DNA from: Clostridiales bacterium
Lineage (GTDB): Bacteria; Bacillota; Clostridia; Lachnospirales; Lachnospiraceae
Reading direction: 5' to 3'
DNA length: 64,000 nt
Assembly: GCA_015655075.1 (NCBI GenBank)
Contig: JAATFT010000049.1
Location: 62,001 to 126,000, forward strand
The position numbers and the translations under genes were made by a program. Positions 12,873 through 23,190 of this stretch are shown piece after piece (within the stretch, counting starts at the first letter, position 1; the number at the start of each line of letters is the position of its first letter). The notes beneath the pieces were generated by a model. That model did not search any database, was not told where the DNA came from, and saw nothing but the letters and a program-made list of their open reading frames with translations.

Positions 12873-13157
12873 ATGCAGATAACTGACGTGCGTGTACGCA
12901 AAGTAAGTAAAGAAGGAAAGATGAAGGCGGTAGTATCCATTACAATGGATAATGAATTCGTAGTACATGATATTAAAGTAATCGAAGGGGAAAAAGGATT
13001 ATTCATTGCAATGCCCAGCCGAAAAGCAGGTGACGGGGAGTATCGCGACATTGCACATCCGATTAATTCAGAGACAAGAGATAAGATTCAAAAAATTATT
13101 CTGGAAAGCTATGAGATTGCGGCTGAGGAATATGAAGAGAAAGAATCAGAAACGTAA
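12873..13157 (+). CDS. spoVG: Septation/RNA-binding regulator SpoVG
   Basis: The 94-aa protein begins [11 protein letters not shown] and contains the [11 protein letters not shown] and IAMPSRK motifs, which are near invariant in SpoVG. The protein binds nucleic acid, and in Bacillus it affects asymmetric septation and sporulation. The AAGGGGGATATACACA leader gives a strong ribosome site. An 18-bp terminator follows. In B. subtilis spoVG is sigma-H driven; with only 43 bases after glgD, I cannot identify a separate promoter. Confidence 0.95.
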
Positions 13158-13169
13158 CAAAAAGCGATA

Positions 13170-13224
13170 AGGAGTATCCCAAAACTTATAAACATGAGTT
13201 TTGGGATACTCCTTTTATTTTTTG
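13170..13224 (+). terminator. Strong terminator after spoVG
   Basis: There is a perfect 18-bp stem, 13170-13187 with 13198-13215 (AAGGAGTATCCCAAAACT and its complement), a 10-base loop and a T-rich tail. Confidence 0.9.
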
Positions 13225-13392
13225 GGTACTCGCGGAAACTCTTTTTATCTCCTTTTCTTTAACTTTCGTATATTTTGAAATTCCATTATAATCTGATTTA
13301 TCTTATCATCCCCGGTAGACGCCTCAACAGGGCAAACGCAGGAAGGAAGGTTATGTAAAATTTCCAGGCAGCTTCCAGGTGTAGGTATCCGA

Positions 13393-13421: not shown

Positions 13422-13445
13422 GGGAATAATAAGGATGTGAGATAT

Positions 13446-14225
13446 GTGGACAATACATTAAAGGAAACAGAATGGATTACAATTAATAAGGTGTTGCTGG
13501 AGATGTACGATATTCATAATGCAGAGCTATTTACGAATCGGGTGTTGCGGATTTTTCGAATGCTGATACCATATTCGAAGGGGTATTTTATAGTACTTGA
13601 CAGAACGGGAACGATTCAAAGGGAATATTCCTCCTTTCTGGAGATGGATGAGAAGACGTATCTGAAGTACGTGAATATCTATTATGATAAGGATTATCTG
13701 AAATACGTATTTGATATTTCCAACCACACGGTTACCTATAGGGATACCGACATTATGGAAGAATCAATACGAAAGAAAACCGAGTTTTATCGGGAGTTTT
13801 TAAAACCGAATAATATCCCGTATGGAGCAGGAATATTGCTACGGCGGAAAGGAGAAGATATTGGAATTGTAAACTTTTTCAGAAACAGTATGCTTGGAGA
13901 TTTCTCGAATAAGGATATGTTTATCCTGGATGTGCTGAAGGAACATCTGGCACATATGCTGTATGCATTGCTTGCTCAGGAGAAAAAAGGAGAAAGCAGC
14001 AGAAACAGCAGTCTGGATAAGGCTGTTATCCGATATGGACTTTCGGATAGGGAAAGGGAAGTTATTTCCTGTATTATGGAGGGAATGTCTAACGCAGAAA
14101 TCAGCGACAGGATGTCTATCAGCATCTCCACTGTGAAAAAGCATGTATACCATATCTTTACCAAAATGAAAGTAAATACAAGAACTCAGCTAAGAGCTGC
14201 AATGGATAAAGCAGAGCTTTTATAG
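13446..14225 (+). CDS. LuxR-family transcriptional regulator with GAF-like sensor
   Basis: The C-terminal 60 residues are a LuxR/GerE helix-turn-helix (LSDREREVISCIMEGMSNAEISDRMSIS followed by STVKKHVYHIFTKMKV). The N-terminal part (about 1-190) reads like a divergent GAF domain (KGYFIVLDRTG, YGAGILLRRKGEDIGIVNFFR), a small-molecule sensor fold. There is no receiver domain. The start is set at GTG 13446 (MDNTLKETEW, 259 aa) because AAGGA is 10 bases upstream; an in-frame GTG at 13437 is only one base from that site. It lies directly upstream of the urea carboxylase operon and is its likely regulator. The ligand is unknown. Confidence 0.8.
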   Translation: MDNTLKETEWITINKVLLEMYDIHNAELFTNRVLRIFRMLIPYSKGYFIVLDRTGTIQREYSSFLEMDEKTYLKYVNIYYDKDYLKYVFDISNHTVTYRDTDIMEESIRKKTEFYREFLKPNNIPYGAGILLRRKGEDIGIVNFFRNSMLGDFSNKDMFILDVLKEHLAHMLYALLAQEKKGESSRNSSLDKAVIRYGLSDREREVISCIMEGMSNAEISDRMSISISTVKKHVYHIFTKMKVNTRTQLRAAMDKAELL

Positions 14226-14317: not shown

Positions 14318-14340
14318 GCGTGTATAAAATAAATCGAAAA

Positions 14341-14392
14341 GAAAAAATGCAAAGGTGCGAAAGTATACCTTTGCATTTTTTCTTTTTTCATT
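14341..14392 (+). terminator. Leader hairpin/terminator between promoter and urea carboxylase (possible attenuator)
   Basis: There is a perfect 16-bp stem, 14341-14356 (GAAAAAATGCAAAGGT) with 14367-14382 (ACCTTTGCATTTTTTC), a 10-base loop and then TTTTTT. It may simply end the luxR transcript, but a promoter-like sequence precedes it, so it could also be a regulated terminator of the operon. Confidence 0.7.
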
Positions 14393-14436: not shown

Positions 14437-17400
14437 ATGTTTGATAAAGTATTTATAGCGAATCGTGGTGCAATCGCGGTCCGAATTGAACGTACCTTGA
14501 AGAAAATGGGAATCCGAAGCGTAGCAGTATATTCCAAAGCAGATCAGGACAGTCTTCATGTAGAAAATGCGGATGAAGCAGTTTATATCGGAGAAGGTAC
14601 CGCAAAGGAAACCTATCTGGATACAGATAAAATAATCAAAGCAGCAATGGATACCGGAGCACAGGCGATTCATCCGGGATACGGATTCTTAAGTGAAAAT
14701 ACGGAATTTGCCGAAAAATGCGAAAAGCAGGGGATTAAGTTCATCGGACCCGATGCAGGTCAAATTAAAAAGTTTGGATTAAAGCATGCAGCAAGAGAAC
14801 TTGCAGTAAAGGCAGAGGTGCCTTTACTTCCGGGAACCGGACTTTTATCCGGAGCAGATGAAGCCGTCAGGGAAGCAGAGAAAATCGGATATCCGATTAT
14901 TTTAAAGAGTACGGCGGGCGGCGGAGGAATTGGTATGAGAATCTGTAATTCCCCGGAGGAATTAAGCCGGGCGTATGAAGCGGTTTGTCATCTGGCAGCC
15001 GCTAACTTTAATAATGCAGGCGTATTCTTAGAAAAGTACATTACCCGATCCCGTCATGTGGAGGTACAGATATTCGGCAACAGGTTTGGTGAAATAGCAG
15101 CTCTTGGCGAAAGAGATTGTTCCATCCAGAGAAGAAACCAGAAAGTCGTGGAAGAAAGTCCGGCTCCGAATCTTTCTGATGAAATCCGAAAGAAGATGTT
15201 TGCAGCGGCAAAGCGGCTTGCGGCAGAAGCGGCATACCGCAGCGCCGGCACCGTAGAATTTCTATATGATGAGCAGGCAAAGCAGTTTTACTTCATGGAA
15301 GTGAATACGAGGCTTCAGGTAGAGCATGGAATTACGGAGGAAGTTCTGGGTATTGACCTGGTTGAGTGGATGGTAAAGGAAGCTGCGGATGAGCTTATTG
15401 ATATTCGTTCTCTTGTGAAAAAGCCCCGGGGATATTCCATAGAAGTTCGTTTATATGCGGAGGATTGTATCAATGGTTTCCGGCCGGGCACAGGAAAAAT
15501 CGATGAGGTCATTTTTGATAGGACGGCAAGGGTGGAGACTTGGATTCAGAAAGGTGTAAAGGTTACTTCCCTCTATGATCCCATGCTGGCAAAGCTGATT
15601 GTACATGGAACAGACCGTGCAGATGCCGTGGAAAAAATGCATCAGGTACTTACTAACACGAGAGTATATGGGATTACATCAAACCTGCAGTATTTAAAAG
15701 CTCTCTTTGAAACAAAGGATTATAAAGAGGGAGCCTTATATACCGGAATGCTGAATACCTTCTCACCCCATGAAAATACAATCGAAGTATTAGACGGCGG
15801 TTTTCAGACTACCGTGCAGGATTATCCGGGTATGATCGGCTACTGGTTTGTAGGTGTCCCGCCATGCGGACCGATGGACAGCTACAGCTTCAGAATCGGC
15901 AACAGTATTCTTGGAAATACAGAAGATGCACCTGGACTTGAGATGACCTTAAGAGGAGGCAGCTACCGTTTCCGTACTACCGTAAGTTTTTGCATCACCG
16001 GGGCTGATATGCATGCCACACTGGACGGAGCGGAAATTGAAATGTATCAGGTAGTTCACGCGTCTGCCATGTCAGTACTGAAGTTTAAGGACTGTAAAGT
16101 GGGGATGAGAACGTATTTGCTTGTAGCAGGCGGTTTTGATATACCAAAGATTATGGGAAGCAGTTCCACTTTCATTGACGGGAAATTTGGCGGGCATAAC
16201 GGAAGAGCACTTCGTACAGGAGATACCTTAAATGTTACGGATCGCTGTGTAATTGATTCTATTGAGTCTATGCCGGAAAAATTCCGTCCCCGTCTGACAA
16301 ACAACTGGAAAATCGGTGTAATACCAGGGCCGCAGCCAACACCGGAATACTTAAAAGCAGAGTATTTAAAAACACTGGAGACAGCCGAATATGAAGTTAA
16401 TTTTAACAGTGCAAGAACAGGTATACGCCTTAACGGACCGGTTCCACAGTGGGTCCGCAAAGACGGCGGAGAAGCAGGACTGCATCCTTCTAATATACAT
16501 GATAATGCATATGCAATCGGAACCCTGGATCTGACCGGTGACCAATCCATATTGCTGGGACCGGACGGACCAAGTCTTGGAGGCTTTGTATGTTCCGTAA
16601 CAACAGCCAAAGGCGAACTCTGGAAGTTAGGTCAGCTGCACCCGGGAGATAAGGTTCATTTTCAACTGATTGACTTAGAGCAGGCAAAGGCAATCCGGGA
16701 AGCCCAAGAGGCAACCTTAAAAGATGATTACAAGACGGTAACACTTCCGGAGCCGATAGAATTGGATTACAATTATGCAATTCTGGCAAAGGAGAATAGG
16801 GAAGATACGGATATTTTAATCCGTCTGGCCGGAGAAGAAAACATTCTTGTGGAATATGGTGAGATGGAACTGGATATTGAGCTTCGTTTCCGTATACATG
16901 TATTGATGCAGAAGTTGCAGCAGAGGAAGCTTCCGATTATTGATCTAACCCCCGGAATCCGTTCCTTACAGATTCATTTCGATATTGAAAAGATATCTGT
17001 TCAGGATATGGTAAACGCCGTATTAAAGTTAAATGAGGAACTGCCTGAGTTATCCGATTTATCCGTTCCGTCCAGAATCATCAGGCTGCCCTTGTCCTGG
17101 GATGATCCGCAGACACAGCTGGCAGCACAGAGATATCAGCAGACCGTCAGGCAAAATGCACCCTGGTGTCCCAGCAATCCGGAATTCATCCGAAGAGTTA
17201 ACGGACTGGACAGCACCTTGGATGTGAAAAAGATAGTATTTGAGGCCAACTATCTGGTGCTTGGACTTGGAGATGTGTACCTGGGTGCACCGGTTGCCAC
17301 ACCGGTAGATCCAAGACACAGATTGGTAACCACAAAGTATAATCCGGCAAGGCCCTGGACACCGGAAAATGCAGTGGGAATCGGCGGCGCATATCTTTGT

Positions 17401-18018
17401 GTATATGGAATGGAAGGACCTGGAGGATATCAGCTTGTAGGAAGAACCATTCAGATGTGGAACCCGCTAGGAGCAACGGAATATTTTAGGCCCGGTAAGC
17501 CCTGGCTTTTGGAGTTTTTTGATCAGATTAAATTCTATCCGGTAAGTGCAGAGGAAATCTTACGGTACAGGGAGGGTTTTTTAAGAGGCAGATATCAGAT
17601 TGAAATCGAAGAGACAACCTTTCATCTGGGTGAATACAAAAAGTTCCTGGAAGAAAATAAAGAATTGATTCAAACTTTCAAGAAACATCAGGAAGCCTCC
17701 TTTGAAGCGGAGCGTCGGATGTGGAAGGATAAAGGCCTGGATGAATTCGATTCCGAAACACAGGATGCACCCCCAATTGCACAGGAAGAGATTCCGGATG
17801 GCTGCGAGGCGGTAAGAACCATACTTCCGGGAATTGTATGGAAGGTTTTTGCAGAAAAAGGACAGCAGGTAAAAGAAGGAGATGTATTAATCATTTTAGA
17901 AAGTATGAAGATGGAATTCCCCATAGAGTCCGAATTTAACGGAGTAGTGGAAAGGGTGTGTCTGGAGCCGGGCGAACAGGTGAATTCAGGTCAGCTTGCG
18001 GTATGTATCAAAGTATAG
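14437..18018 (+). CDS. Biotin-dependent urea (or guanidine) carboxylase
   Basis: It is a 1193-aa single-chain carboxylase. The N-terminal biotin carboxylase (about 1-450) has ANRGAIAVRIERTL, the ATP-grasp glycine loop STAGGGGIGMR and EVNTRLQVEHGITE. The middle carboxyltransferase is built from KipA/KipI-like domains (about 455-990; PPCGPMDSYSFRIGN, GPDGPSLGGFVC, GDVYLGAP, GGYQLVGRT). The C-terminal biotinyl domain has ESMKMEF with the biotin lysine at 1158. Family members carboxylate urea to allophanate, or guanidine to carboxyguanidine. Asn-690 (HDNAYAIG) may be the position that separates urea enzymes (Asn) from guanidine enzymes (Asp). I recall that distinction but could not align. There are no carboxyguanidine deiminase genes nearby. 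The ribosome site is AGAGGAG. Confidence 0.9.
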   Translation: MFDKVFIANRGAIAVRIERTLKKMGIRSVAVYSKADQDSLHVENADEAVYIGEGTAKETYLDTDKIIKAAMDTGAQAIHPGYGFLSENTEFAEKCEKQGIKFIGPDAGQIKKFGLKHAARELAVKAEVPLLPGTGLLSGADEAVREAEKIGYPIILKSTAGGGGIGMRICNSPEELSRAYEAVCHLAAANFNNAGVFLEKYITRSRHVEVQIFGNRFGEIAALGERDCSIQRRNQKVVEESPAPNLSDEIRKKMFAAAKRLAAEAAYRSAGTVEFLYDEQAKQFYFMEVNTRLQVEHGITEEVLGIDLVEWMVKEAADELIDIRSLVKKPRGYSIEVRLYAEDCINGFRPGTGKIDEVIFDRTARVETWIQKGVKVTSLYDPMLAKLIVHGTDRADAVEKMHQVLTNTRVYGITSNLQYLKALFETKDYKEGALYTGMLNTFSPHENTIEVLDGGFQTTVQDYPGMIGYWFVGVPPCGPMDSYSFRIGNSILGNTEDAPGLEMTLRGGSYRFRTTVSFCITGADMHATLDGAEIEMYQVVHASAMSVLKFKDCKVGMRTYLLVAGGFDIPKIMGSSSTFIDGKFGGHNGRALRTGDTLNVTDRCVIDSIESMPEKFRPRLTNNWKIGVIPGPQPTPEYLKAEYLKTLETAEYEVNFNSARTGIRLNGPVPQWVRKDGGEAGLHPSNIHDNAYAIGTLDLTGDQSILLGPDGPSLGGFVCSVTTAKGELWKLGQLHPGDKVHFQLIDLEQAKAIREAQEATLKDDYKTVTLPEPIELDYNYAILAKENREDTDILIRLAGEENILVEYGEMELDIELRFRIHVLMQKLQQRKLPIIDLTPGIRSLQIHFDIEKISVQDMVNAVLKLNEELPELSDLSVPSRIIRLPLSWDDPQTQLAAQRYQQTVRQNAPWCPSNPEFIRRVNGLDSTLDVKKIVFEANYLVLGLGDVYLGAPVATPVDPRHRLVTTKYNPARPWTPENAVGIGGAYLCVYGMEGPGGYQLVGRTIQMWNPLGATEYFRPGKPWLLEFFDQIKFYPVSAEEILRYREGFLRGRYQIEIEETTFHLGEYKKFLEENKELIQTFKKHQEASFEAERRMWKDKGLDEFDSETQDAPPIAQEEIPDGCEAVRTILPGIVWKVFAEKGQQVKEGDVLIILESMKMEFPIESEFNGVVERVCLEPGEQVNSGQLAVCIKV

Positions 18019-18034
18019 ACAGGAGTGATAAAGA

Positions 18035-19747
18035 ATGAGATATTTTCCAGAAAAGTTAACATGTACTTGGCTTAAAAACAGTTACAAAAGTGGAGAACTG
18101 ACACCGTATGAACTGGCGGAGGAGATTGTGAGACGGGCAGCGGATAAGGAAAGATACAATATCTGGATTGTAAAACCGACCGTGGAACTGATGAAAAAAT
18201 ACATTGACAGGTTACCGGAATACAGAGAGGAATATCCGTTATGGGGAATCCCGTTTGCCATTAAGGATAATATTGATTTGAAAGGAGTATCTACAACTGC
18301 AGCCTGTAAGGAATATAGGTACCTGCCTGAAGAGAGTGCCACAGTAGTGGAAAAATTAATTGCAGCAGGTGCGATACCGGTAGGAAAGACTAATCTGGAT
18401 CAGTTTGCAACCGGTCTGGTAGGAACCAGAAGCCCTTACGGTGAAGTCCCTAATTCATGGAATCCGGAATTAATCAGCGGCGGCTCCAGTTCCGGTTCTG
18501 CAGTTGCGGTAGCCCTTGGCATGGCAGCCTTTTCCCTTGGAACGGATACCGCCGGTTCCGGACGTATACCGGCGGCATTAAACGGTCTGGTAGGGTATAA
18601 ACCGTCACTTGGTGCGTGGTCTACAAAAGGAGTGGTTCCGGCCTGCGCAAGTCTTGACTGTGTAACGGTATTTGCAAACAATCTTATGGATGTCCAGAAG
18701 GTTAACCTGGCAGCCAGAGGAGAAGATAAGAGGTGCTGCTGGTCCCGCAGCTACGAGACACCCGGGTATAAATTACCGGGAAAAATATGTCTTGCAAAAA
18801 CCGGTGTACAGTTTTATGGAAATTATGCAAAGGAATATGAAGAAAAATGGAACCGGGCAGTAGAAAGAATCAAAGCCTGTGGAATCGAGGCAGAATATAT
18901 TGATTATTCCATGTTTTCTGAGGCCGCATCAATTTTATATGAGGGGCCATGGGTAGCGGAGAGATGGAAAGATTTGGGCGAGTTTGTCAAAGCCCATCCC
19001 GGCAGGACATTTCCGGTTACGGAGACAATCTTACGTGCCGGCGCTGATAAGGAGCATACGGCAGTTAAGGTGTTTGAAGCCATGCATAAGCTTCAGGCTT
19101 ACCGGGCAAAGGTTAAGCAGATATTAAAGGAGGCCGTATTAATCCTGCCTACTGCAGGAGGAACATTTACAAGGGAAGAAGTACGGGAGGATCCTATCGC
19201 AGCAAATAGTAAAATGGGGTTTTATACCAACCATTGCAATCTGCTTGATATGTGTGCAATCGCAGTGCCGGAAGACACTGCAGATAAAAAACTGCCCTTT
19301 GGCATTACGATTTTTGCACTGGCAGAAGCGGAGGGTCTCATACTTGGAATGGCGGAACAGTTTTTACAGACAGAAGCCGTTTCCATTGCGGTATGCGGAC
19401 TTCATAAGAAAGGATATCCCTTGGAAAGCCAGCTTACAGAACTGGGAGCAAGATATCTGGAATGCACAAAAACAGCTCCCGAATATGAACTATATGAGCT
19501 GAATACAATGCCGGTAAAACCGGGATTGGTTTATAACAAAGAAGCAGGAGCCGCCATTGAAGTAGATTTATACGAACTTCCTGTGTTTCAGTATGGAAAG
19601 TTCATGCGGCAGGTGAAACAGCCCCTTTGTATAGGAACGATAAAGCTTTGTGACGGCAGAAAGGTGCAGGGCTTCTTATGTGAAGCATATGCGGTAAAAG
19701 GTGCAAAAAATATAACAGAAGCCGGAACATATAAAATAGCGGAGTAG
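18035..19747 (+). CDS. atzF: Allophanate hydrolase (amidase family)
   Basis: It hydrolyses allophanate to ammonia and CO2, completing the ATP-dependent urea amidolyase route. The amidase-signature core shows Lys-77 (IPFAIKDN), the cis-Ser in GGSSSGS (149-155) and the nucleophile Ser-175 in GTDTAGSGRIPA. The C-terminal about 110 residues (YELNTMPVKPGLVY onward to GTYKIAE) match the small second domain of AtzF/DUR1,2-type enzymes. That domain distinguishes it from general amidases. It starts 16 bases after the carboxylase stop with AGGAG upstream, and the PII genes follow. Confidence 0.93.
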   Translation: MRYFPEKLTCTWLKNSYKSGELTPYELAEEIVRRAADKERYNIWIVKPTVELMKKYIDRLPEYREEYPLWGIPFAIKDNIDLKGVSTTAACKEYRYLPEESATVVEKLIAAGAIPVGKTNLDQFATGLVGTRSPYGEVPNSWNPELISGGSSSGSAVAVALGMAAFSLGTDTAGSGRIPAALNGLVGYKPSLGAWSTKGVVPACASLDCVTVFANNLMDVQKVNLAARGEDKRCCWSRSYETPGYKLPGKICLAKTGVQFYGNYAKEYEEKWNRAVERIKACGIEAEYIDYSMFSEAASILYEGPWVAERWKDLGEFVKAHPGRTFPVTETILRAGADKEHTAVKVFEAMHKLQAYRAKVKQILKEAVLILPTAGGTFTREEVREDPIAANSKMGFYTNHCNLLDMCAIAVPEDTADKKLPFGITIFALAEAEGLILGMAEQFLQTEAVSIAVCGLHKKGYPLESQLTELGARYLECTKTAPEYELYELNTMPVKPGLVYNKEAGAAIEVDLYELPVFQYGKFMRQVKQPLCIGTIKLCDGRKVQGFLCEAYAVKGAKNITEAGTYKIAE

Positions 19748-19766
19748 GAACAAGGAGGACGTAAGG

Positions 19767-20093
19767 ATGAAGATGATTAAGGCAATTGTAAGACCGGAAA
19801 AGACGGAGGAGGTTTTAGACGCCTTATTGCAGAACGGCTTTGGGGCGGTAACAAAGATGAGCATATTAGGAAGAGGAAAACAGAAAGGTTTAAAGGTAGG
19901 AGATATATACTATGACGAAATTCCTAAGGAAATGATTATGCTGGTTATCCGGGATGAGGACGAAGACAAAGCGGTTAAAATTATTGTTGATTCTGCAAAG
20001 GCTGATAAGAAAGGTACTTACGGAGACGGAAAGATTTTTATCAGTGATGTTGACAGGGCGGTTACAATCAGCAGCGGAAAGGACGAGCTGTAA
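19767..20093 (+). CDS. PII signal protein, NifI1-type
   Basis: This 108-aa PII-fold protein would sense 2-oxoglutarate, ATP and ADP. It begins MKMIKAIVRPEKTEEVLDAL and has the GRGKQKGLKVGDIYYDEIPKEMIMLVI segment, typical of the NifI1 branch: the T-loop is short, and the uridylylated-Tyr segment of GlnB/GlnK is missing. In methanogens and some Clostridia, NifI1 and NifI2 form a complex that inhibits nitrogenase. Here no nif gene is present; it sits between allophanate hydrolase and an ABC transporter. The ribosome site is AAGGAGGA. The target is inferred to be the carboxylase or the transporter. Confidence 0.85.
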   Translation: MKMIKAIVRPEKTEEVLDALLQNGFGAVTKMSILGRGKQKGLKVGDIYYDEIPKEMIMLVIRDEDEDKAVKIIVDSAKADKKGTYGDGKIFISDVDRAVTISSGKDEL

Positions 20094-20108
20094 GAGGGAG
20101 GTGCACAC

Positions 20109-20450
20109 ATGAAAGAAGCTATGATTATAATAAGGCCCAAAATGTACTTTCCGACCAAGGAAGCGCTGGATAAGGCAGGATTTCATTCCATGTCTGTCAG
20201 TGAAGTTATTGGCCGCGGCAAAAGTCCGGTACAGTATGACGGAGATGAAGAGGGTACCGTCAGGCACAGATTGTTTGCAAAGAGACTGATTAATATGTAC
20301 ATTCGTGACGAAGATGTGCAAAGACTCATTGATACGGTGGTTGAGGTAAATCAAACCAATCATGCGGGCGACGGAAAAATATTTATAATGCCGGTAAAAG
20401 ATGCGGTACGTACCCGTACAGGAGAAAGAGGAATTGAAGCAATTATGTAG
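20109..20450 (+). CDS. PII signal protein, NifI2-type
   Basis: This 113-aa partner of the preceding gene starts MKEAMIIIRPKMY and has GRGKSPVQYDGD, followed by a longer, charged T-loop region and the PII C-terminal signature GDGKIFIMPVKDAVRTRTGERG. The T-loop and the terminal RTRTGERG are like NifI2. Paired NifI1/NifI2 genes normally lie between nifH and nifD. This pair is inside a urea-degradation operon, 15 bases apart, with a strong GGGAGGTG site. That setting suggests that the complex reports nitrogen status to urea use. Confidence 0.85.
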   Translation: MKEAMIIIRPKMYFPTKEALDKAGFHSMSVSEVIGRGKSPVQYDGDEEGTVRHRLFAKRLINMYIRDEDVQRLIDTVVEVNQTNHAGDGKIFIMPVKDAVRTRTGERGIEAIM

Positions 20451-20479
20451 GCAGATTAAAAGAGAGGACGGTATCTGAT

Positions 20480-21577
20480 ATGAAAAATCTAAAAAGAATT
20501 AACAGCTTATTTCTGGCAGTCATTTTGACAGTTGGAATGCTATCCGGGTGCGGAAGCAGCAATTCCGAAAACAGTAATTTAGAAAACAGTAACTCCGAAA
20601 GCAGCGGTGCGGATACAAAAGAAAGTGCTTCTGCTTCAGGTGGGAGCAGTACCGCCAAAGGTACCAAAGATAATCCATTTATCTTAGGTGTCAGTCCCAT
20701 GAGTGGATGGTATGCGTGGTATGGCATTAATGGAACGGGAATTTTTGAAGACAACGGTGTATATGTAGACATATCCTTCTTTCCGGTATACAGTGATTCT
20801 TTGACAGCATTCTATTCCGGACAGGTAGATGGAATCTGCATTGCAGGTTCTGATGCAATTGCACCCCTAAACGAGGGTGTTGAGTTTAAGATTGTACTTG
20901 TAAATGATAATTCCTACGGAGCGGACGGACTTGTTGTACAGAATGGAATTTCCTCTGTTAAAGACTTAAAGGGCAAGACAGTGACTACCGAAATAGGTAC
21001 GCTGGAGCATATGTTCCTGTTGAAAATCTTAAAAGAAAACGGGATGACAATTGATGACATTAACTTTACCAATATGACCATTAATGATGCAGGTCCGGCC
21101 TTTATCGCAGGCAGTGTAGATGCGGCAGTTCTCTGGGAGCCTACACTTTCTACGGCAATTGATGCCGGCGGAACACTGTTATATAGTACAAAGGAAGAAC
21201 CTGGCCTGATTCCGGACACACTTGCGGTAAGACAGGAGGTATTGGACAGCAGTTCTGATGCGGTGCAGAAGATTGTTAATTCCTGGTTTGCCGGAGTGGA
21301 AAAACTAAAGGTAAAGGATAAGGAATTTATCGGTGCAATTTGTACAGGCGCCGAACTGGAATATGATGATTACATGGTAATGTTAGACGGTGTTACAATC
21401 TTTGATAAGGCAATGAATGAAGAAACATTTAAGACAGGGGAGGATTATGCTTACTTAAACTATACATTACAGAAATCAGCAGAATTTCTGCTTGAAACCA
21501 ATATGATTACAGAATTGCCGGAGGATGTAAGCAGTATACTGGATGACACTTATATTAAGGGGCAAAATAATGATTAA
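20480..21577 (+). CDS. ABC transporter substrate-binding lipoprotein (NitT/TauT/SsuA type)
   Basis: This is an extracellular binding protein anchored by lipid: a signal peptide with lipobox MLSGCGSS (Cys near 23) and a low-complexity Ser/Asn linker, then a periplasmic-binding fold of the SsuA/TauA/THI5 class (YNGTGIFEDNGV-like opening, FYSGQVDGICIAGSD, VDAAVLWEPTLSTAI). Family members bind taurine, sulfonates, nitrate, pyrimidines or related small compounds. The operon context suggests urea, guanidine, biuret, an allantoin product or another amide. The specificity cannot be read from sequence. Confidence 0.85.
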   Translation: MKNLKRINSLFLAVILTVGMLSGCGSSNSENSNLENSNSESSGADTKESASASGGSSTAKGTKDNPFILGVSPMSGWYAWYGINGTGIFEDNGVYVDISFFPVYSDSLTAFYSGQVDGICIAGSDAIAPLNEGVEFKIVLVNDNSYGADGLVVQNGISSVKDLKGKTVTTEIGTLEHMFLLKILKENGMTIDDINFTNMTINDAGPAFIAGSVDAAVLWEPTLSTAIDAGGTLLYSTKEEPGLIPDTLAVRQEVLDSSSDAVQKIVNSWFAGVEKLKVKDKEFIGAICTGAELEYDDYMVMLDGVTIFDKAMNEETFKTGEDYAYLNYTLQKSAEFLLETNMITELPEDVSSILDDTYIKGQNND

Positions 21578-22358
21578 GATTAAGATAAGAAAAGAAATCA
21601 GTAAAAGGAAATATATTCTGTTTGCCGTCCTGTCTTTTCTTGCGTTATTGGTTGCCTGGCTCCTTGCCAGCGGAAGCGGTGCAATTAAGGAAATTTTCCT
21701 GCCAAGGCCGGGAAGTGTGGTAACTTACTATTTGGAATCCATAAAAGACGGGTCCTTATGGATTAATGCAAAAATCAGTATTTACCGAATCACGCTGGGA
21801 TTTGTATATGCGGTTATTCTTGGTATCCCAATTGGTATTATGGTTGGAACCTTTAAGAAATGGGAAGCGGTAATCCGTCCGTTGTGTGAGTTTATTCGGT
21901 ATATGCCGGTACCTGCGTTTGTTCCGCTTATCATGGTATGGGTAGGTATTGATGAAAGCGCAAAAATTACGGTCATCTTCATCGGAACCTTTTTTCAGCT
22001 GGTACTCATGGTTGCAGATGATGCAAGGTCCGTACCGGATGATTTGATTAGTGCAGGATATACATTGGGTTCGGGGACGGGAAACACAATTTTTAAGATA
22101 ATAATTCCGGCAATGATGCCGCGGTTAATGGAAACACTTCGAATGATGATCGGATGGGCCTGGACCTATCTGGTAAGTGCCGAGCTGGTAGCAGCAAATA
22201 CCGGCCTTGGTTATACCATCTTAAAATCACAGCGTTTCCTGAAAACAGATGCAATTTTCGGAGGAATACTGCTGATTGGACTTTTGGGATTAATTACCGA
22301 CCGTATTTTTGCATTCCTGAACAAGAAATTATTCTCCTGGGCAGAGGGAGGAAGATAA
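21570..22358 (+). CDS. ABC transporter permease (SsuC/TauC type)
   Basis: The 262-aa membrane protein has about six hydrophobic segments and the inner-membrane component motif (EAARTLG-like: LISAGYTLGSGTGNTIFKIIIPAMMPRLMETLR). The start at 21570 (MIKIKIR) overlaps the end of the preceding gene by eight bases and has AAGGGG upstream, so translation is coupled. The earlier in-frame ATG at 21543 is inside the binding-protein gene. It works with the binding protein and the ATPase that flank it. Confidence 0.9.
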   Translation: MIKIKIRKEISKRKYILFAVLSFLALLVAWLLASGSGAIKEIFLPRPGSVVTYYLESIKDGSLWINAKISIYRITLGFVYAVILGIPIGIMVGTFKKWEAVIRPLCEFIRYMPVPAFVPLIMVWVGIDESAKITVIFIGTFFQLVLMVADDARSVPDDLISAGYTLGSGTGNTIFKIIIPAMMPRLMETLRMMIGWAWTYLVSAELVAANTGLGYTILKSQRFLKTDAIFGGILLIGLLGLITDRIFAFLNKKLFSWAEGGR

Positions 22359-22359
22359 A

Positions 22360-23190
22360 ATGGGTTTATTGAAACGAAAGAAAACTGATTTTTCTGTCAG
22401 GGAAGAACATATAGAAGCAAATCTAGCGAATAGTATTGTCTATGTAAGAAATTTGCAGAAGGTCTATTCCTCTGCCAAGGGTAGTGTGACGGCGGTGAAG
22501 GATATCAATATAAATGTATTGGAAAACGAATTTGTGTCTATTGTAGGGCCATCCGGATGCGGTAAATCCACACTGCTTCGTATGATAGCCGGACTGGAAA
22601 CGGCAACGGACGGACAGATAGTCATCCGGGACCGTAATATTATTGGACCTGGAGCAGACAGAGGAATGGTATTTCAGTCTTATACCCTGTTCCCTTGGAT
22701 GACAGTAGGCAATAACATTAAATTTGGTTTTAAGCTTCGAAAGATGCCAAAGGAACAACAGGAAGAAATCGTGAACCGTTATCTGAAAATAATCAAGCTT
22801 GAAAAATTTAAGAACAGTTTTCCCCGTGAATTGTCCGGCGGTATGAAGCAGAGGGTGGCAATTGCACGTGCGCTTGCCGACAGTCCGGAAGTATTGCTGA
22901 TGGACGAACCCTTTAGTGCACTAGATCCGAAAACCAGGGAAGACATGCAGCTTTTGATGCGTCAAATTTGGCAGGAAGAGAAACCAACCGTAATTTTTGT
23001 TACTCATGATATTGAAGAAGCCGTATTCTTATCCGGTAAGATTTATGTGCTGACTTCAAGACCGGGTATTGTTAAGGAGGAAATTCCAATCCTGTTGCCA
23101 TATAACAGAGACTTATCCTTAAAAGATACAGAGGAATTTGTCAAATTAAGAAAACAGGTAAATGCTTTCATTGAACATGGAGAAATTTGA
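22360..23190 (+). CDS. ABC transporter ATP-binding protein (SsuB/TauB type)
   Basis: It powers the import system above. It has Walker A GPSGCGKST, a Q-loop in MVFQSYTLFPWMTV, the signature LSGGMKQR, Walker B VLLMDEPFSALD and the H-switch VTHDIEEA. Its 276 aa include a short N-terminal extension of about 25 residues before the first strand. It starts one base after the permease stop with GGGAGGA upstream, and is the last gene of the operon. A hairpin terminator follows. Confidence 0.93.
   Translation: MGLLKRKKTDFSVREEHIEANLANSIVYVRNLQKVYSSAKGSVTAVKDININVLENEFVSIVGPSGCGKSTLLRMIAGLETATDGQIVIRDRNIIGPGADRGMVFQSYTLFPWMTVGNNIKFGFKLRKMPKEQQEEIVNRYLKIIKLEKFKNSFPRELSGGMKQRVAIARALADSPEVLLMDEPFSALDPKTREDMQLLMRQIWQEEKPTVIFVTHDIEEAVFLSGKIYVLTSRPGIVKEEIPILLPYNRDLSLKDTEEFVKLRKQVNAFIEHGEI

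Follow-up and report, generated by a model that had tools for sequence, protein, structure and literature searches.

A NifI1/NifI2-type PII pair in a guanidine-type carboxylase operon as a candidate regulator of a NitT/TauT-type ABC importer

In the GlnK-AmtB system, the gene of a PII protein is coupled to the gene of the transporter that it gates, and the cyanobacterial importer NrtABCD is of the NitT kind. The interaction of cyanobacterial PII with the ATPases NrtC and NrtD, with PII-ADP proposed as the acting form, is described in PMC6603209. NifI1,2 blocks NifDK, and this block is reversed by 2-oxoglutarate, Mg, and ATP, according to PMC9765008. In methanogens NifI is said, in PMC8395244, to be always encoded in the nitrogenase operon. 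The PII pair described here consists of adjacent genes of the same two lineages and in the same order as NifI1 and NifI2 of methanogens and anaerobic diazotrophs, but it does not stand beside nifHDK and is linked to the gene of an importer ATPase instead; in addition, its NifI2 belongs to a distinct clade with a mostly shorter T-loop. As in GlnK-AmtB, a PII gene is coupled to a transporter gene, with gating proposed here; unlike in that system, the transporter is an ABC importer rather than the AmtB channel, and the PII lineage is NifI rather than GlnK. The control of NrtABCD and UrtABCDE is similar in that PII acts on ATPase subunits of an importer (reported there in PMC6603209, proposed here), but the cyanobacterial case involves a single GlnB-type PII and a regulatory domain of NrtC, whereas the present case involves a dedicated NifI-type hetero-pair encoded inside the operon and a tail on the ATPase. 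Among the matches listed in open-licence PMC text, no paper was found that links NifI or a pair of PII proteins to urea/guanidine carboxylase or to importers of the NitT type.

The window, that is, the whole stretch of 64,000 nucleotides analysed, corresponds to G000:C2:62001-126000, where G000 is the window's own genome (4.51 Mb in 98 contigs, 78.6% complete). Seven genes on one strand, from 14437 to 23190, encode a carboxylase, an allophanate hydrolase, two PII proteins, a substrate-binding protein, a permease, and an ATPase, with intergenic gaps of at most 29 nt and one overlap (Table 1). The PII ORFs (108 and 113 aa) lie on the same strand with 15 nt between them, and each is preceded by a purine-rich sequence resembling a ribosome-binding site. 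An earlier note on this DNA had described two adjacent PII genes between allophanate hydrolase and a NitT/TauT-type importer, and the gene coordinates confirm this arrangement. The substrate-binding protein also matched SsuA_fam (138 bits) and a putative urea ABC substrate-binding protein model (107 bits), both below the cut-off. A relative of the LuxR-type regulator is found near the equivalent operon in several other loci. Inverted repeats were observed upstream of the LuxR gene (36 nt, 81%, at 13154-13229) and between this gene and the carboxylase gene (20 nt, perfect, at 14337-14386). A guanidine riboswitch was considered as the control element of the operon and rejected, the window's Rfam matches above the gathering score being tRNA only. 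Among 18 relative loci, a guanidine-I match was obtained in L081 only, and weaker matches were all below gathering scores. The L081 riboswitch (L081:7049-7176) lies between the importer ATPase gene and two genes 5' of the carboxylase gene, which resemble, by eye, a DUF1989 pair.

Table 1. Features of the operon and its surroundings in the window
Feature	Coordinates	Strand	Match or remark
LuxR-type regulator (GerE helix-turn-helix), probable operon regulator	13437..14225	+	Pfam GerE 65 bits
Biotin carboxylase, urea/guanidine carboxylase family, guanidine-type signature	14437..18018	+	TIGR02712 1720 bits
Allophanate hydrolase	18035..19747	+	TIGR02713 605 bits, cut-off 511
NifI1-type PII protein; Q39 and K58 kept, R101/R103 absent (GlnB numbering)	19767..20093	+	
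NifI2-type PII protein, importer-linked clade; Q39 absent, R101/R103 kept	20109..20450	+	
NitT/TauT-type substrate-binding protein	20480..21577	+	NMT1 (Pfam)
NitT/TauT-type permease	21543..22358	+	PF00528; true start possibly a few codons inward
NitT/TauT-type importer ATPase, pair-linked clade	22360..23190	+	
ATPase N-terminal segment IEANLANSIV, codons 18-27; putative NifI docking peptide	22411..22440	+	

The run had been taken for a urea-amidolyase operon; carboxylase and allophanate hydrolase are indeed present, but the carboxylase is of the D-type and resembles guanidine carboxylases. PMC11410670 gives aspartate at K. lactis positions 1330 and 1584 as the mark of guanidine carboxylase. 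In an alignment with the K. lactis enzyme, whose residue 1330 is N, D698 of the window carboxylase corresponded to position 1330, and D was also present at 1584, a position counted by eye on the alignment line. Both aspartates occur in 12 of the 12 carboxylases compared (that of the window and those of pair-linked loci), and the urea carboxylase adjoining urtABCDE on a Salmonella plasmid has N at 1330. These residues suggest that the window enzyme should be classed as guanidine-carboxylase-like and not as a plain urea amidolyase. Operons with guanidine carboxylase, CgdAB, and allophanate hydrolase likewise combine catabolic genes with a NitT-type importer, as on a Rhizobium beringeri plasmid with a NitT importer, two UAAP genes, a D-type carboxylase, and allophanate hydrolase; unlike the window operon, the stretch covered there has no PII gene, and its ATPase lacks the N-terminal segment described below. 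Furthermore, unlike CgdAB-type guanidine operons, G000 shows no DUF1989 gene (the CgdAB or carboxyguanidine deiminase type) in a PF09347 search, although this absence is weak evidence because the genome is only 78.6% complete and the gene could lie in the missing part. Two DUF1989 genes are found upstream of the carboxylase gene in another locus, L060. In Enterococcus raffinosus, a pair-importer-UAAP-carboxylase-allophanate hydrolase set (L200, pCX012922) is carried by a 985-kb replicon that is recorded as a plasmid.

The two window PII proteins matched Pfam PF00543 (P-II) with 75.6 and 76.8 bits (cut-off 25), and the B-loop sequence GDGK is present in both. A tree of 89 PII proteins, comprising 41 NifI1 rows, 41 NifI2 rows, and 7 GlnB/GlnK proteins including E. 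coli GlnB and GlnK, was resolved into three separate groups with bootstrap/SH-aLRT values of 100/97 for NifI1, 100/89 for NifI2, and 100/94 for GlnB/GlnK. The window proteins were placed in NifI1 and NifI2, respectively, and neither in GlnB/GlnK, as the earlier note had supposed; on sequence grounds, the two genes are thus members of the NifI1 and NifI2 lineages by descent. An alternative topology joining the NifI2 proteins of loci with an importer (importer-type NifI2) to GlnB/GlnK was retained by the AU test (p 0.116) on a tree built from few columns. Importer-type NifI2 forms one clade (98 in one tree, 98/91 in the 89-protein tree). Importer-type NifI1 is not recovered as one group, needing two to three changes on the trees, but its monophyly was likewise retained by the AU test (p 0.487 and 0.322). 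The short T-loop of NifI1 noted previously is present, but it does not mark a non-nif type, since nif-type NifI1 has it too; the length of NifI2 differs more between the locus types, with matched lengths of 112-120 at importer-type loci versus mostly 117-129 at nif loci. The best PDB profile matches of the window NifI1 and NifI2 are two different PII chains of 9p1x, which holds them in 12 and 6 copies, and from this chain pair we infer that 9p1x is a NifI complex. An AlphaFold model of NifI2 based on six sequences has the PII fold at modest confidence (pLDDT 76); because the 50 Foldseek matches listed for it are PII/GlnK chains and omit 9p1x, the link to 9p1x comes from sequence profiles alone.

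Conserved residues were counted in 30 importer-type pairs using GlnB numbering. In NifI1, Q39 is found in 28 of 30 proteins, K58 in all 30, and T and S at positions 101 and 103 in all 30, whereas NifI2 has R101 in 30/30 and R or H at 103 in 29/30 and retains Q39 in only six. Nif-type NifI1 is likewise without R101 (65/65) and R103 (64/65), and the retention of Q39, K58, and GDGK with the loss of both arginines is shared with NifI1 of methanogens and anaerobic diazotrophs. In PII trimers, these arginines reach the nucleotide site of the adjacent chain. If they serve the adjacent chain here, a working site would need two unlike chains, and the constancy of the pair would be explained. The 2-oxoglutarate- and nucleotide-site residues are retained across the pair, in line with the 2-oxoglutarate-gated control suggested in the earlier note.

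That note had also stressed the lack of nitrogenase, which holds for the 64-kb window but not for the genome, since G000 contains four nifH genes above the TIGR01287 cut-off and 16 PF00148 matches. Nif-type clusters are located on contigs other than that of the window, one with the order nifH-I1-I2-D-K-E-NB (C68) and an anf-like one with the order nifH-I1-I2-D-G-K (C4). A further non-nif NifI pair, on C85, stands by NitT importer genes and a second importer ATPase gene, with other neighbours that read as aldehyde dehydrogenase and iron-type alcohol dehydrogenase; of the four NifI pairs in this one genome, two are in nif-type operons and two are by importers. Given the nif and anf-like clusters, the window pair might be a spare pair for the nitrogenases of the genome that is located in another operon. 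However, both nif-type clusters carry their own NifI pairs, and the window pair is therefore not obviously needed for them. The separate clade of importer-type NifI2 also speaks against a spare pair, as does the absence of a PF00148 match in 11 of the 27 genomes with importer-type pairs (completeness was rated for 4 of the 27), and this explanation is very improbable. The use of NifI outside nif operons thus recurs in other genomes; those free of PF00148 matches include G133, G250, and Enterococcus raffinosus (L134), while the Treponema and Endomicrobium genomes with importer-type pairs do have such matches. G000 contains fifteen PII-family matches, eight of which are the four NifI-type pairs. 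Clusters with nifH-like and nifD/K-like genes were also observed in L042, L043, L044, L045, and L046 (G000 C60, C7, C1, C90, and C42, respectively), and no PF00543 match was found near them. On C98 of the same genome (L039, 1-1435 and 8612-14926), urease genes are accompanied by a 565-aa Amt-PII fusion, the PII part of which matched PF00543, and by three tandem ORFs reading, by eye, as arginase-family proteins.

A scan of genome contigs yielded 466 NifI1 relatives, of which the best 80 were taken; their neighbours are nif genes in 54, a NitT/TauT importer in 25, and a contig end in 1. In all 25 importer-type loci, an importer ATPase gene of one clade lies 3' of the pair, within 4.5 kb and on the same strand. 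A carboxylase gene is found in 13 of these 25 loci and is missing from the stretches examined, some of them short, in the other 12; one of the latter, L080, coincides with L061, for which a longer stretch was examined that includes part of a carboxylase gene. The synteny that the earlier note had proposed to survey, carboxylase and allophanate hydrolase followed by the pair and an ABC importer, was recovered for the importer ATPase throughout and for the carboxylase only in part: what is constant is the pair and the ATPase, and the carboxylase is optional. Of 97 loci, including the window and with two places counted twice, 94 contained both NifI1 and NifI2, on one strand in 94/94. Two of the three loci without a pair are contig ends and the third is L072, where a lone NifI1-like gene (L072:6438-6773) was observed with an alcohol dehydrogenase-like neighbour and with neither NifI2 nor an importer.

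Three layouts of importer-type loci were distinguished, the neighbour families having been searched in single examples only. The first has the carboxylase with substrate-binding protein, permease, and ATPase; in the second, the permease and ATPase genes are accompanied by genes for arginase-family and carbon-nitrogen hydrolases, PucR regulators, and a GABA-transaminase-like enzyme; and in the third, the ATPase gene is directly 3' of the pair, with an allantoate amidohydrolase-like gene near the L137 pair. Only the pair and the ATPase are common to all three. Downstream of the NifI-importer set of L190, a third, weak PII-family ORF (L190:11454-11759, PF00543 37 bits) is flanked by genes for an arginase-family protein and a PucR-type regulator. 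In a class sample of 283 genomes, 19 further NifI1 places were found outside G000, 19/19 by nif-type genes, so importer-type pairs are a minority there. The family sample contained one further genome of the window's genus, G024 (99% complete), in which neither a NifI1 match nor a near ATPase was found, which indicates that the operon is not fixed even within the genus.

The carboxylase and the transporter had both been named as possible targets of the pair. The biotinyl subunit of acetyl-CoA carboxylase is under PII control, and a comparable control of the biotin carboxylase would suit an ATP-costly enzyme that shares the operon, the order carboxylase-allophanate hydrolase-pair being found in the window and several relatives. 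However, besides the 12 of 25 importer-type stretches (among the best 80 of 466 NifI1 relatives) without it, carboxylases without NifI are common. A phylum sample of 289 genomes gave no carboxylase match beyond the window's own at E 1e-200, and plasmid records were used instead; relatives of the carboxylase covering at least 80% of the query were found in 268 plasmid records versus 6 for NifI1, and three carboxylase stretches examined have no PII gene within about 8 kb. The carboxylase is thus an unlikely target, with roughly the standing of an outside chance, and of the two candidates the importer, whose ATPase accompanies the pair in every importer-type locus sampled, is the likely one as judged from gene content.

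The coupling was also examined from the ATPase side. ATPase-only searches in three genome samples that partly overlap (299, 398, and 391 genomes), each including G000 and scored on the best 6-8 candidates per genome, yielded ten ATPases of the clade, six known and four new (two in G685 and one each in G1031 and G992), each by a pair. The two nearest non-clade ATPases of one survey have no PII gene on the stretch examined, one of them being on a 3.9-kb contig. PII proteins are promiscuous, and LuxR genes lie near several loci, so the pair could be a general PII that is merely co-transcribed with nitrogen-scavenging genes and has Amt, glutamine synthetase, or regulators such as the LuxR protein as targets. 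Against this, the pair and the ATPase are coupled in both search directions, the ATPase carries a clade-specific segment, and the LuxR relative is absent from the other layouts examined; a general role of this kind is considered improbable.

The 30 ATPases behind pairs (28 distinct) possess an extra N-terminal stretch with the consensus (I/L)EAxxA(N/S)(S/T)xI, from which single sequences deviate at one to three positions and which starts 45 residues before Walker A in 28/28 distinct linked ATPases. The first pattern was matched by two of the four new loci, and the other two, L189 and L197, deviate at a single position. The final, loosened pattern matched 33 of 33 distinct linked ATPases (the 28 and five loci added later), for which the short consensus is IEAxxANS, and 0 of 30 unlinked ones, a separation that is partly by construction because the pattern was derived from the 28 linked sequences and then loosened. 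The unlinked set comprises 24 of 25 unlinked survey rows (one without a locus), L191, L192, the Rhizobium ATPase, and, from loci that do carry a pair (L035, L098, and L061), three additional ATPases. NifI1 was also matched in just two of the genomes supplying the 24 rows, G099 and G000, and there on different contigs.

AlphaFold modelling of the window ATPase gave pLDDT values below 50 for residues 1-18 and placed the start of strand 1 at residue 25. The segment (18-27) thus connects a tail predicted to be flexible with strand 1, and its final residues, which extend into this strand, may have a partly structural role. On tree columns that exclude the segment, the linked ATPases are monophyletic (SH-aLRT 95), and the segment and the linkage may therefore share a single origin and not be independent. 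Such an origin, the fixed distance to Walker A, and the ending in strand 1 would also suit a coupling or assembly feature of the importer clade, with the pair regulating the importer elsewhere on its surface. On the other hand, L192, the closest unlinked ATPase whose permease is similar (3.9-kb contig, no PII gene), lacks the segment, and the conserved segment begins inside a tail of low predicted order; a purely clade-specific feature is therefore a rather doubtful explanation, though one of some substance.

Taken with the constant linkage, a mechanism in which the NifI1/NifI2-type heteromer acts on the NitT/TauT-type ABC importer through its ATPase, instead of on nitrogenase, is proposed as the probable one. 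When nitrogen is plentiful, at low 2-oxoglutarate and in the ADP-bound state, the heteromer may dock on the ATPase, probably through the N-terminal tail, and import would stop. A rise in 2-oxoglutarate and Mg-ATP would then release the heteromer, and import of the nitrogen-rich substrate could resume. For the window operon, guanidine or a related compound is the probable substrate, and its degradation to ammonia may be assisted by the D-type carboxylase and the allophanate hydrolase. By analogy with NifI acting on NifDK and with the action proposed for PII-ADP on NrtC/NrtD, the pair would be expected to keep the importer off at plentiful nitrogen; we infer both the sign of the effect and the docking site.

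More broadly, it is an evenly balanced question whether NifI-type pairs are a general, apparently horizontally spread gate for ATP-driven importers of nitrogen-rich organic compounds that works through a dedicated docking peptide of the ATPase, with nitrogenase as just one branch of NifI targets out of two. The particulars of such a gate, namely (I/L)EAxxA(N/S)(S/T) on the ATPase N-terminus as the peptide and guanidine, other guanidino compounds, and ureides as the substrates, are put forward with equal reasons for acceptance and reserve. NifI proteins, known as off-switches of nitrogenase, are here tied to importers, and the annotation "urea carboxylase" in these operons would change. If the ATPase segment is the docking site, one short peptide would explain the choice of target, and if the proposal is true, a stop of guanidine or ureide uptake by anaerobes at plentiful nitrogen would be directly testable.
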